In this document: positions 1 to 61,530 of the stretch, piece by piece
Layout: each line of letters opens with the position of its first letter
Position numbering within the stretch: position 1 is the stretch's first letter
Source: Caldilineaceae bacterium
GTDB lineage: Bacteria; Chloroflexota; Anaerolineae; Caldilineales; Caldilineaceae
Length of the DNA stretch: 64,000 bases
Reading direction: 5' to 3'
Assembly (NCBI GenBank): GCA_026708085.1
Contig: JAPOVP010000083.1
Span: forward strand, 1 to 64,000
Program-made: the position numbers and the translations under genes
Notes under the pieces: generated by a model
Database searches by the model: none
The model's input: only the letters and a program-made list of their open reading frames with translations
Told to the model about the DNA's origin: nothing

Positions 1-255
1 GGGGGCTCCGCCCCCGCAACGCCCCCTCTCCTACAACCTCGCGTCGTAGCCAGTGGGTGGGCAATACGAAATTGGCGGCCCGTGTCGGCCCACGCTACGC
101 CCCGCCTGCTGGCAGATACCGAAAATGTGCCCAGCGCGAGCAAGACAGGCGAGGCCACTCCCATATATGCCCAACGTTCACCGCGATGACCATCGACAGC
201 CCGCTACAGAATTACTGACGGTACATTCCCCCCAGACAGACCGCACACAGTACAC
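1..255. repeat. Dispersed GC-hairpin repeat, copy A (5' end cut by window edge)
   Basis: Starts gggggctccgcccccgcaacgccccctctcctacaacctcgcgtcgtagccagtgggtgggcaatacga and continues near-identically with 46572-46818 over about 250 bp. Confidence 0.9.
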
Positions 256-303
256 ACACAGAACATGGCTTAGTAGCTACAACCTGACAACTGAAAACTG
301 CTG

Positions 304-20280: not shown

Positions 20281-20663
20281 AGCAATACAGGCGGTACGCC
20301 TGCGTTGCCGTGAATTTCGTCTAACACAAAAACGCCGGGCAGCAACAGCTCCCAGCGCGAAAAAGAGTCTTCTATGTATAAAAGTTCAACATATACGCGC
20401 AGGGCGAGCAGAGGACGAAATAGAGGGGGAGCCCTTAATCGTTGACCCTTCGGCCGCCGTCAACTGCACAAACGCCCGCGCCGGCGGCCACACTCGCTCC
20501 TCAGATTCAGTTATTCCCCTCCATTGTACCTGTGAATCGTCCGTTTGTCTACTTTTTCCCGCAACGTCGGTGCATCCCAAAATGAGTGAGCTCTTCTACA
20601 CCTTCGGCAACAACCAAACCATAGCCATTCCGCGTTCAACTCTGAGCAGTGAAAGCGCCGCTT

Positions 20664-20830
20664 CTGACTACTGACAACTAACCACTGCAGTTTGGGGCGG
20701 TCGGGCCTTCGGCCCTCCCTTGTGCGGGGGGTTCCCCCCCGCAACGCCCCCCTCCTACCCCATGCCACCTTGGCGACGCGACGCCGGCATTGTGCCTATA
20801 CCACCGGTTTGCCCATCCACGTCGTGCCGC
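20664..20830. repeat. Heptamer tract plus GC-hairpin repeat, copy B
   Basis: CTGACTA CTGACAA CTAACCA CTGCAGT then ttggggcggtcgggccttcggccctcccttgtgcggggggttccccccc gcaacgcccccctcctac. Confidence 0.85.
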
Positions 20831-31159: not shown

Positions 31160-31194
31160 CTGACCGTTGACAACTGCAGTGGTTCATGATCAGT
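31160..31194. repeat. Heptamer tract that switches strand sense at CTGCAGT
   Basis: CTGACCG TTGACAA CTGCAGT GGTTCAT GATCAGT. Confidence 0.7.
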
Positions 31195-31436
31195 GACTGG
31201 TGGCATTTCGTCAGGGCGATACGGGCCGTTCGGAGGCTCAGTCTGGTTGGCCTCTTTCCGCGTCTGTGATACCGTATTAGTTATGTCCGGCGCTGCCATG
31301 GAGGCGGGCCGGGTTGTTGAATTTTGGGACTAGTTCGACCGTCGCCACATGTTGGACGCTCCGGCCGAAAGTAGACTGGTCAAGAGGAATGTTCGCACGA
31401 AGCCAGGCGTAGACGCTGCCTGAGGCTGGAGCAAAA

Positions 31437-40534: not shown

Positions 40535-40665
40535 GGGCGGTCGGGCCTTCGGCCCTCCCCTGTGCGGGGGCGGAGCCCCCGCAACGCCCCCGGTCTAGCT
40601 CGCGTCGCAGCCAGTGTGCGGGCAATTCGACTTTGGCGGCCCGCGGCCAAACACCTAATTCCATA
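40535..40665. repeat. Dispersed GC-hairpin repeat, copy C
   Basis: tgggcggtcgggccttcggccctcccctgtgcgggggcggagcccccgcaacgccccc...ctcgcgtcgcagccagtgtgcgggcaattcgactttggcggcccg. Confidence 0.85.
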
Positions 40666-40680
40666 CGAAGGAAGCTACTA

Positions 40681-46239: not shown

Positions 46240-46506
46240 GGCAGAATCAGCCCAGCCCATCCCGCCTCAACCACAGCCCACAACACCAGCCACACAAGGC
46301 CCGCCCTCCAGCTTTCCGTGAATCAAAAAGAGCCGCTCCTGGCGGCCCCGCGTGAATCAAACCGCCGCGCAACAGCGGGGTTACTGAAAACCAAGAACCA
46401 GAAACGCAACTTCTAAGCCTTATTCAGTGCGCGATGCCGGACAAGGCGAGCTAAGTGCTCACCCCTCACTCCTCTCCGCACCTGTCCTTCTTCAATTGCT
46501 GCTTTC

Positions 46507-46820
46507 ACTGACCACTGATCACTGACTACTGCAGTTCTGGGCGGTCGGGCCTATTCGGCCCTCCCTTGTGCGGGGGCTCCGCCCCCGCAACGCCCCCTCT
46601 CCTACAACCTCGCGTCGTAGCCAGTGGGTGGGCAATACGACGGTGCCGCCCCGTGTCGGCCCACGCTTCCCCCGCCTCCTGGCAGATTCCGAAAATGTGC
46701 CAGCCGCAGGCAAGACAGGCGAGGCAACTCCCATATATGCCCAACGATCACCGCCTTGACCATCGAGAGCCCGCTACAGAAATGCTGACGGTACATTCCC
46801 CCCAGGCAGACCGTACACAA
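46507..46820. repeat. Heptamer tract plus GC-hairpin repeat, copy D (longest complete copy)
   Basis: ACTGACC ACTGATC ACTGACT ACTGCAG TT then gcggtcgggcctattcggccctcccttgtgcgggggctccgcccccgc...; about 250 bp near-identical with 1-250. Confidence 0.92.
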
Positions 46821-46885
46821 AAAAGTGGATTAGAAGTTACACCGACTGTTTATTTCGCCCCAGTCCCAAACCGGAAGAGAAACAA

Positions 46886-48052
46886 ATGATTCCATCCCGC
46901 GCCGTCACCTCAGGACCCAAGTACCATTGGTTCGGCTACTACGACAAACTCCAGTTCGATCCATCCGCCCGCTACGCCCTGGGCATGCAGGTGGACTTCG
47001 AACATCGCGCCCCAAAGCCGGAGGATGTAATCCGGGTCGGAATGGTCGATCTGGCGGACGGCGACCGCTGGATCGAACTGGGAGAAAGCCGCGCCTGGGG
47101 CTGGCAGGCCGGCTGCATGCTCCAGTGGCTGCCCCAATCGGCCCACGAAATCATCTGGAATGATAGGATAGACCGCCGCTTCATCAGCCACATCCTCAAC
47201 ATCGACACCGGCCGTACACGCACCTTGCCCCACCCCGTCTTCACCCTCAGCCCCGACGGCCGTACCGCGCTCTCCATCGATTTCAACCGCCTCGAAGACA
47301 TGCGCCCCGGCTATGGTTACATGGGCATCCCCGATCCCTGGCACAACGTGATGGCGCCCGCGGAGACCGGCATCCACAAAGTCGACCTTCGCACCGGCCA
47401 AAGCAATCTGATCGTCAGCTTGGCTAAAGTAGCGTCGATTCCCTACCCCCACGGTGAGATTCTGTCCGCAAAACATTATTTTAATGTTCTCATCTTCAAC
47501 CCCGGCGGCACGCACTTCCTCTTCCTCCACCGCTGGCGCTTCGGCGACGGACCCTTCCACACGCGCATGCTTACCGCCAAAGCGGACGGCTCCGATCTGA
47601 CAGTCGTCGACCACTCCGGCCGCACCTCCCACCTCATCTGGCGCGACGACAGCCATATTCTGGCCTGGTCCCACCGCCCCTCACACGGCGGCGCCTACTA
47701 CATCTTCCCCAACGCCGAAGACGGTTCTCGCGGCCCCGACCACATTGTGGGCAAAACCAGGATGCCGCTCAACGGCCACTGCACATATCTCTCCGACAAC
47801 AACTGGATCCTCAACGACACCTATCCACAGGGAGAAGAACGCCTTCAGGACCTCTACCTCTACCATGTCCCAACCGACCGTCGCGTCGACCTCGGCCGGT
47901 TCCACTCGCCGCCGCCTTACACCGACACCTTGCGCTGCGATCTCCACCCCAGTTCCAGCCCCGACGGCGCCAAAATCATCATCGACTCGACTCACGGCGG
48001 CAACGGCCGCCAGATGTATCTCTTCGAGCTAGGCAACCTGGTCAGCTCCTAA
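46886..48052 (+). CDS. TolB-like beta-propeller protein, oligogalacturonate lyase-like (paralog of 60373-61530)
   Basis: ORF 388 aa; TSGPKYHWFGYYDKLQFDPSARYALGMQVDFEHR; GGTHFLFLHRWRFGDGPFHTRMLTAKADGSDL. Confidence 0.75.
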   Translation: MIPSRAVTSGPKYHWFGYYDKLQFDPSARYALGMQVDFEHRAPKPEDVIRVGMVDLADGDRWIELGESRAWGWQAGCMLQWLPQSAHEIIWNDRIDRRFISHILNIDTGRTRTLPHPVFTLSPDGRTALSIDFNRLEDMRPGYGYMGIPDPWHNVMAPAETGIHKVDLRTGQSNLIVSLAKVASIPYPHGEILSAKHYFNVLIFNPGGTHFLFLHRWRFGDGPFHTRMLTAKADGSDLTVVDHSGRTSHLIWRDDSHILAWSHRPSHGGAYYIFPNAEDGSRGPDHIVGKTRMPLNGHCTYLSDNNWILNDTYPQGEERLQDLYLYHVPTDRRVDLGRFHSPPPYTDTLRCDLHPSSSPDGAKIIIDSTHGGNGRQMYLFELGNLVSS

Positions 48053-48148: not shown

Positions 48149-48260
48149 ACTAACCACTGACCACTGACCACTGCAGTTGTGCGGTCGGGCCTGGTCGGCC
48201 CTCCCTTGTGCGGGGGCTCCGCCCCCGCAACGCCCCCTCTCCTACAACATGCCTCATCGA
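48149..48260. repeat. Heptamer tract plus GC-hairpin repeat, copy E (short)
   Basis: ACTAACC ACTGACC ACTGACC ACTGCAG TTGTgcggtcgggcctggtcggccctcccttgtgcgggggctccgcccccgcaacgccccctctcctacaac. Confidence 0.9.
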
Positions 48261-48811
48261 CCGGGTGTCGATATTGGTGACGGGTGCCTATTCGAAGGTG
48301 TCTGGCCAGACCACGTCCCGCCAGCCCCCCGCAGACCACACTGAGGCACTCTCTCCTCGCCCTCGTGCCTGCCCTGCGTTTCTCCAAAAGCCTGCAAACG
48401 ACTTTAGCCACCACCGGCACGAATTCCCCGCCAGACTGTCCCACCCCAAAACTGGGATTCAACCCATGTAGGGGCGCCCCTTGTGGGCGCCCTTTCTGTG
48501 CTATAATGGCGCCAAACCAGAGAAGCTAACGCCCGTAACCTATCTCTAACGGCAAGCGAACCTTTGCAAAATCAGTACCATCGGCACAGAGAACTTCATT
48601 TCAGCGCAAAATGGCAAGACATAACGCCACTTGGCGCGAAGCGAAGCGACAAAAAAATTGTGTAATTATTTTACTTACGAGCGAAGTATCCCTGGGCTGC
48701 CTGAACTGTACATAAGCGAGGATCGGAGGTTGGTCTGGCCTCCTTCTCTGGATGCGGCAGTCCCATGGTCACGAACTTCAACACATGACTCCAAAATGTA
48801 GAGGTGCCAAT

Positions 48812-49040: not shown

Positions 49041-49390
49041 CGCGCTCGTGAACGCATACAAACGCAAGCAAACTCTTGTCAACGCTCGCAGACTCTCATG
49101 AACGCATACAAACGCAAGCAAACTCTTGTCAACGCTCGCAGACGCTCGTGAACGCATACAAACGCTTGCAAGCTCTCGTGAACGCTCGCAGACTCTCATG
49201 AACGCATACAAACGCAAGCAAACTCTTGTCAACGCTCGCAGACTCTCATGAACGCATACAAACGCAAGCAAACTCTTGTCAACGCTCGCAGACGCTCGTG
49301 AACGCATACAAACGCTTGCAAGCTCTCGTGAACGCATACAAACACAAGTAAACTCTTGTCAACGCTCGCAGACTCTCGTGATCTCTCGTA
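49041..49390. repeat. Hierarchical tandem array: 10-bp unit, 50-bp unit, 150-bp higher-order unit
   Basis: Decamers aacgcataca/aacgcaagca/aactcttgtc/aacgctcgca/gactctcatg repeat with no indel over about 34 units; order ABCDE ABCDE' AFGDE | ABCDE ABCDE' AFG AB'CDE''. Confidence 0.95.
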
Positions 49391-60372: not shown

Positions 60373-61530
60373 ATGACCATGCGCCCCATCACTTCCGGCC
60401 CCAGGCATCACTGGTTCGGCTACTATGACAAGCTGCAGTTCGACCCCTCCAGCCGCTACGTACTCGGCATGGAGGTCGATTTCGAGCACCGCTCGCCAAA
60501 CGCAGAAGATGTGATCGGCATCGGGATGATCGACCTTACCGACGGCAACCGCTGGATTGAGTTGGGCGAGACAAAGGCCTGGTGCTGGCAGCAGGGCTGT
60601 ATGCTCCAGTGGATCCCCGGCTCTGACAGGGAGGTTGTCTGGAACGACCGCGTAGACGACGGCTTCGTCTGCCGCATCGTAGACGTGCACTCAGGCAAGA
60701 TGCGCACCGTCGACTGTCCAATCTATACCATCTCTCCCGACGGCCGCACCGCCATCGGCGCCGACTTCCGCCGCATAAACCACATGCGGCCCGGCTACGG
60801 CTACGCCGGCATCCCCGACCCCAACTTCGACCGTCTGGCGCCCGAAGACGTCGGCATCCACCGCGTTGACCTGGAGACCGGCCACGCCTCCCTTATCGTT
60901 TCCATCGCCCAGGTCGCCGCTATCCCCTATCCCCACATGGACATCAGTGGAGCCAGGCACTACTTCAATCACCTGCTCTTCAATACCGACGGCTCTCGCT
61001 TCATCTTCCTGCATCGCTGGCGGTTCGGCGATGCCGGTTTCAACACCCGCATGATGACGGCCGCAACTGACGGCTCCGACATCTACCCCGTCGACCAGTA
61101 CGGGCACACCTCTCACTTCATCTGGCGCGACCCCGAACACATCCTTGCATGGGCCCGCCATCCCTCGCACGGAGACGCCTTCTACATCTACCGCGACCGC
61201 ACGCAGGACGCGAAGGTTATCGGCAAAGGTGTGATGAAGCTGAACGGGCACTGCACCTATCTTGCCGACACAAACTGGATTCTCAACGACACCTATCCCG
61301 TACCCAGGGGCGACGGCAGGGTCCAGGAGTTATACCTTTACAATGTGGAGAGTGGCCAGAGGACGGAACTGGGAGAATACGCCTCATACCCGGAATATAC
61401 GGGCGAGTGGCGCTGCGATCTCCATCCGCGCTCCAGCCCGGATGGGAGGATGATCACAGTCGATTCAGTACATGGGGGTTACGGTCGTCAGATCTACCTG
61501 ATGGACATCTCCGCACACCAGGGCATCTAG
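60373..61530 (+). CDS. TolB-like beta-propeller protein, oligogalacturonate lyase-like (paralog of 46886-48052)
   Basis: ORF 385 aa; TSGPRHHWFGYYDKLQFDPSSRYVLGMEVDFEHRSPNAEDVIGIGMIDLTDGNRWIELGET. Confidence 0.75.
   Translation: MTMRPITSGPRHHWFGYYDKLQFDPSSRYVLGMEVDFEHRSPNAEDVIGIGMIDLTDGNRWIELGETKAWCWQQGCMLQWIPGSDREVVWNDRVDDGFVCRIVDVHSGKMRTVDCPIYTISPDGRTAIGADFRRINHMRPGYGYAGIPDPNFDRLAPEDVGIHRVDLETGHASLIVSIAQVAAIPYPHMDISGARHYFNHLLFNTDGSRFIFLHRWRFGDAGFNTRMMTAATDGSDIYPVDQYGHTSHFIWRDPEHILAWARHPSHGDAFYIYRDRTQDAKVIGKGVMKLNGHCTYLADTNWILNDTYPVPRGDGRVQELYLYNVESGQRTELGEYASYPEYTGEWRCDLHPRSSPDGRMITVDSVHGGYGRQIYLMDISAHQGI

Follow-up and report, generated by a model that had tools for sequence, protein, structure and literature searches.

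A putatively folded, strand-polarised cassette shared by two families of miniature transposons in Caldilineaceae

The five related stretches detected in a 64-kb window (the whole stretch of DNA that was analysed) are, with high probability, parts of a composite non-autonomous transposon, in which a MITE with IS66-type ends would carry an exchangeable, polarised fold cassette, be moved in trans and be subject to loss depending on its orientation. The kind of element is an ordinary one, an IS66-driven MITE, but its cargo is unusual in being folded (as predicted), strand-polarised and present in two families. MITEs have been described before, and so have transposons oriented by replication; what is new, as far as we found, is a polarised cassette common to two MITE families.

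Results

Five copies in the window

All five copies (A to E) listed by a first-pass annotation of this DNA were recovered, every one of them on the + strand (Table 1). The order that it had described for B, D and E, heptamers-ACTGCAGTT-hairpin 1-hairpin 2-CAACGCCCCC, was also found, as was the tail of about 200 bp common to A and D (89-93% identity). Its view of the five as copies of a single repeat holds for the cassette but not for the element, as B and E belong to a second family with other ends. The interval assigned to D, 46507-46820, was too short, with the terminal inverted repeats (TIRs) lying outside it. The heptamer tract taken as a defined part of the unit does occur in B, D and E, but it alternates with a second spacer, a CT-rich tract that replaces the heptamers in many copies. 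The TIRs, the second family and the polarity relative to replication had all escaped the first-pass annotation.

Copy D carries the same ACTTCTAA variant at both ends, and its flanks differ, so that a target duplication is no longer recognisable. Copy A is devoid of its 5' half because contig C58 begins inside hairpin 2, the window starting at base 1. For copy B, a 3' end was not found, the tail being diverged.

Table 1. Coordinates of the cassette-bearing elements in the 64-kb window and of their parts
Feature	Position	Strand	Remarks
Copy D, whole T-family (IS66-type) MITE	46406..46840	+	435 bp; 5' GCAACTTCTAAGCC, 3' GGATTAGAAGTTAC
5' terminal inverted repeat, copy D	46406..46419	+	
3' terminal inverted repeat, copy D	46827..46840	-	
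Heptamer tract (ACTGACC)n, copy D	46507..46536	+	ends in ACTGCAGTT; variable spacer
Cassette of copy D, predicted three-way junction	46539..46596	+	outer stem GGGCG 46539-46543 / CGCCC 46591-46595; hairpin 1 46547-46561; hairpin 2 46569-46589
T-family tail, copy D	46597..46826	+	about 230 bp, without conserved ORF
Copy A, T-family MITE	1..280	+	5' half missing; 3' TIR 267-280
Copy B, M family	20568..20755	+	5' end cGGTGCATCCCAAAATGAG at 20568 (TIR position from sequence); heptamers start 20664; cassette 20695-20750
Copy C, degenerate T-family copy	40535..40678	+	CT-rich spacer; cassette 40535-40590; tail shortened; 3' end remnant GGAAGCTAC at 40670-40678 (read from sequence)
Copy E, M family	48149..48465	+	heptamers; cassette 48179-48236; 5' end degenerate; 3' TIR ...CCCCAAAACTGGGATTCAACCC, last base 48465 (read from sequence)

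The window also contains a heptamer/CTGCAGT stretch (31170-31204) opposite to all five cassettes, which breaks the heptamer polarity within the window, a gene pair duplicated at 46898-47826 and 60382-61298 (72-79% nucleotide identity), the first copy of which lies directly 3' of copy D, and a tandem array at 49045-49335 of about 5.8 copies of a 50-bp unit, with a 150-bp higher-order period (99% match).

Ends and target duplications of the T family

When the copies were aligned with their flanks, sharp ends were evident, with GTRACTRCTAAGTCC at the 5' side and GGCTTAGTAGTTAC at the 3' side forming imperfect inverted repeats, and lengths of 373-454 bp. Among the two-ended copies of the window's own genome, the 8-bp target duplication was intact in 14/43 and kept 7/8 positions in a further 13/43 (a few loci overlap), such that at least 7/8 positions were kept in 27/43 two-ended relatives compared to 1.5% by random pairing. 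Neither was any frame conserved across the MITE copies, the longest stop-free stretch changing frame and strand between them, in agreement with the initial judgement that no ORF was convincing.

The candidate autonomous partner was found in sister genomes as complete single-ORF IS66 elements. These are 1538-1569 bp long and have GTAACTACTAAGCC at either end; of 11 full-length elements measured, 9 are flanked by perfect (8/8) target duplications. The protein encoded by these elements matches PF03050 (5e-41) and NF033517 (5e-90), and PF13005 was matched as well. In the window's own genome, MITE-like ends lie beside transposase termini at contig ends, and four IS66 insertions are broken between contig ends whose 8-bp flanks match. 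A PF03050 search of this genome gave no match because the assembly contains the ends of the IS66 transposase gene but not its interior, and hence no complete copy. The first-pass proposal of a high-copy, non-autonomous MITE is thus upheld by the defined ends and 8-bp duplications seen across the genome copies and by the IS66-family partner.

Compared to the autonomous elements, the MITE ends are identical over 14 bp at the 3' side and at 11/14 positions at the 5' side. Judged by this likeness, A, C and D appear to be MITEs of an ISBst12-type IS66 element, and the T family is probably moved in trans by an IS66 transposase, because its ends and 8-bp duplications are those of the intact elements. 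Within the ISBst12 group, transposition has been demonstrated for ISDge4 of Deinococcus, which has ends GTGACTACTCAGCA / GTAACTGCTCAGCA and an 8-bp duplication (PMC12898284), a length typical of IS66 (PMC3281130, PMC12898284). The elements described here share with ISDge4 a single-ORF IS66 transposase, the 8-bp duplication and nearly the same ends, but ISDge4 is an autonomous element, whereas here the relatives of about 1.55 kb are putative partners of MITEs. A comparable dependence on a parental IS is described for MITECca01 (IS982 family, Cardinium), which is likewise short, non-coding and of high copy number (169 copies), although the parts of that report used here mention neither a folded cassette crossing families nor a replication polarity (PMC9769881).

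As a separate observation, a 113-kb contig (C18 of G000; L062, L063) has opposite IS66 ends at its termini with the same 8-bp flank, CTTCTTTC, and could thus represent a circular replicon in which a single IS copy bridges the two ends.

The cassette inside a second MITE family

The elements of the M family measure about 410-510 bp and have ends (GGGTGCATCCCA...) unrelated to those of the T family, with the same cassette inside. The relatives of its window copies, B and E, terminate in GGGTGCATCCCAAAATGGGG ... CCCCAAATCTGGGATGCACCC and are flanked by 8-10 bp duplications (e.g. GCGGCAAAG in L104). No autonomous partner or transposase for this family was found in the sequence examined. In sister species, the same cassette is joined to yet other tails. 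Heptamers plus hairpins constitute a cassette that has moved between MITE families, at least two of them, whose ends differ, probably by recombination inside the shared heptamer or CT tracts, and such a shared cassette can make two distinct MITE families look like one.

Local amplification was also seen: at G012:C1:5106467-5107293 (L219), five cassettes are arranged head to tail with an exact 201-bp period.

Predicted fold and compensatory changes

The cassette of copy D was predicted to fold more stably than any of 200 shuffles (z -4.0 as DNA, -3.5 as RNA). Across 26 distinct cassettes picked for diversity, and subject to the tool's caveat on relatedness, 96.7% of the cells pair, double changes were found at four pairs (17 cells) and the covariation score was reached by 0/500 shuffles and was lower in slid controls, so the covariation that the first-pass annotation had proposed to look for is present. 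The patterns used to collect the cassettes demanded an intact hairpin-2 stem and, therefore, the independent evidence is that from hairpin 1 and from the closing pair of hairpin 2 only. Hairpin 1 appeared as GGGCC/GGCCC, GGCCGC/GCGGCC, GGGCGC/GCGCCC, GCCCGC/GCGGGC, GTGCC/GGCAC and GGGTC/GACCC, and the junction nucleotides were invariant. The predicted three-way junction is thus supported by compensatory changes.

Abundance and distribution

In the 6.24-Mb genome, the hairpin-2 core has 184 exact copies against none for a reversed control pattern, and there are at least 40 long copies with 87-95% identity, so that the repeat is not due to chance. Many contigs, C58 included, begin or stop inside a copy, and the repeat accounts for the fragmentation of these MAG assemblies at its copies.

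Several species of the genus contain the core, whereas none of 149 other genomes sampled from the class does; G007 and G004, the latter a complete sister chromosome, lack the cassette too. Outside the class, a near-identical core, CTTGTGCGGGG..CCCCGCAACGCC, was detected in unrelated Proteobacteria, with four and three copies beside other hairpins in two Proteobacterial MAGs, and a diverged copy in a Paracoccus plasmid. No match was found in the phages searched, and the plasmids gave two weak matches, with the core only in that from Paracoccus. The likeness of the Proteobacterial core could reflect either shared ancestry or convergence. At L307, L370, L392-L398 and L400, the Proteobacterial and Paracoccus hairpins form arrays with a near-identical core, whose flanks (TTGTGCGGGG..CCCCGCAACG) are identical or alike.

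Orientation along the chromosome

G012, a complete sister chromosome of 5,403,351 bp, has the cassettes on the + strand at 0.27-2.68 Mb and on the - strand at 2.79-5.31 Mb. With one tandem array merged, 64/67 follow two putative replication arms (p 7e-16), and none of 2000 shuffles with free breakpoints was as polarised. The two switch points are about 2.6 Mb apart, both at GC-skew flips, and one exception, at 4.07 Mb, is close to a sampled segment of inverted skew. The position of dnaA, the strands of tRNAs and those of genes did not place the origin of this chromosome. The dnaA gene, at 5.20 Mb, is near one switch point only, that where standard skew would put the terminus; either the origin is distant from dnaA, or this lineage has an inverted skew.

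When local GC skew was used, the cassette was on the C-rich strand in 53/57 cases in the window's own genome, 40/42 in G012, 8/9 in G015 and 9/12 in G009. Further species gave 70/92, the bias being weaker in one of them (33/50). Both families showed the effect separately (36/40 for T alone, 17/18 for M), and heptamer tracts away from cassettes were also polarised (17/17). In contrast, autonomous IS66 elements, a small set pooled over several genomes, were oriented at random (11/20; Fisher p 0.006 vs. the T family). The direction of flanking genes was unrelated to that of the cassette (upstream sense 40/92, downstream 48/92), as judged with a crude gene caller whose long, spurious ORFs overlap many cassettes.

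Polarity thus tracks the cassette and heptamer sequence, and neither the transposase nor transcription. It follows the cargo instead of the enzyme because two MITE families are polarised and the autonomous IS66 with the same ends is random. The ends of the autonomous elements are, however, more symmetrical than those of the MITEs, whose orientation could therefore also stem from their unequal ends.

An FtsK/KOPS-like polar octamer was considered and dropped, as the words of the cassette were not the most skewed ones outside cassettes. Of the octamers sampled, the heptamer word ACTGACCA had the strongest skew (44 to 2).

Discussion

The reading that we favour would have as its outer unit (A, C and D) a MITE bearing ISBst12-type IS66 ends, whose GTRACTRCTAAGYC ends would be bound in trans by the transposase of full-length IS66 copies in the genus and whose insertion would duplicate 8 bp of the target. 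The cassette inside would consist of a variable tract, of heptamers or CT-rich, followed by the three-way junction, with its two GC hairpins held in an outer stem, and this cassette would have passed between at least two MITE families by recombination. Copies persist almost only in the orientation that makes the written strand of the cassette the C-rich one of its replication arm; those in the opposite orientation would be lost during replication, when one template strand could expose hairpins or G-runs.

The usual explanation for transposons oriented by replication lies in the enzyme, through targeting of the clamp or the fork. The corresponding explanation here, that the transposition complex senses fork structure or the sliding clamp so that MITEs enter one way, is possible but rather doubtful. 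It has precedents in Tn7 (TnsE route) and IS200/IS605, whose orientation follows replication direction (PMC5371812), and in reports on several IS families (Gomez 2014, cited by PMC5371812 and PMC4549789), and the asymmetry of the MITE ends would fit it. However, unlike those systems, the autonomous IS is unbiased here and polarity follows the cargo: the same bias is seen in two MITE families with different ends, and even in heptamer tracts without a cassette. Orientation-dependent loss is preferred over directed insertion as the source of the polarity. This natural contrast between polarised MITEs with the cassette and a randomly oriented autonomous element that shares the ends splits cargo from enzyme, thus making insertion bias and orientation-dependent loss of hairpin DNA directly testable against each other by comparing young and old copies.

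It is unlikely, although polarity along both chromosome arms, presence in unrelated MITE families, compensatory changes and invariant junction nucleotides would agree with it, that the cassette works as a strand-specific signal of the chromosome (in restarting replication, in segregation or in organising domains, for example) which is not bound to one transposon and which MITEs acquired or spread as its vehicles. The near-identical core in unrelated Proteobacteria would then point to a relationship with the hairpin arrays found there, but the distribution is patchy, as expressed by the absences from G004, G007 and the rest of the class sampled.

The first-pass annotation had also offered a structured RNA. 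A terminator, a 3'-UTR element or a small RNA would account for the stable RNA fold and the covariation, and in two Proteobacterial loci the fold begins a few bases 3' of a stop codon; no Rfam family was matched at gathering (only rpfG below threshold, 15.9 bits, E 0.59), orientation is independent of both upstream and downstream genes, and polarity tracks the replication arms. Thus, the structured part of that proposal stands with the covariation behind the three-way junction, whereas a role linked to a transcript is unsupported and seems to us very improbable.

Finally, the REP side of the same annotation, i.e. REP/BIME-type palindromes moved by a RAYT (Y1) transposase, is scarcely credible. 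The short, intergenic, high-copy GC hairpins and the true REP-like repeats nearby (48467, and inside M-family tails) recall REPs, in which a palindrome of 20-40 bp is accompanied by a terminal tag, GTAG or CGTC (PMC3733652), but the cassette has neither tag, is flanked by TTGT / AACG in a polarised 58-nt unit with a predicted three-way junction, and travels inside inverted-repeat elements with target duplications.

The GTAG-tagged REP-like hairpins (GTAGGGGCAGGCCTTGTGCCTGCCC and relatives) provided four usable copies only as a polarity control. They are present in the window at 48467-48491 and, at many loci, are often nested in M-family tails.
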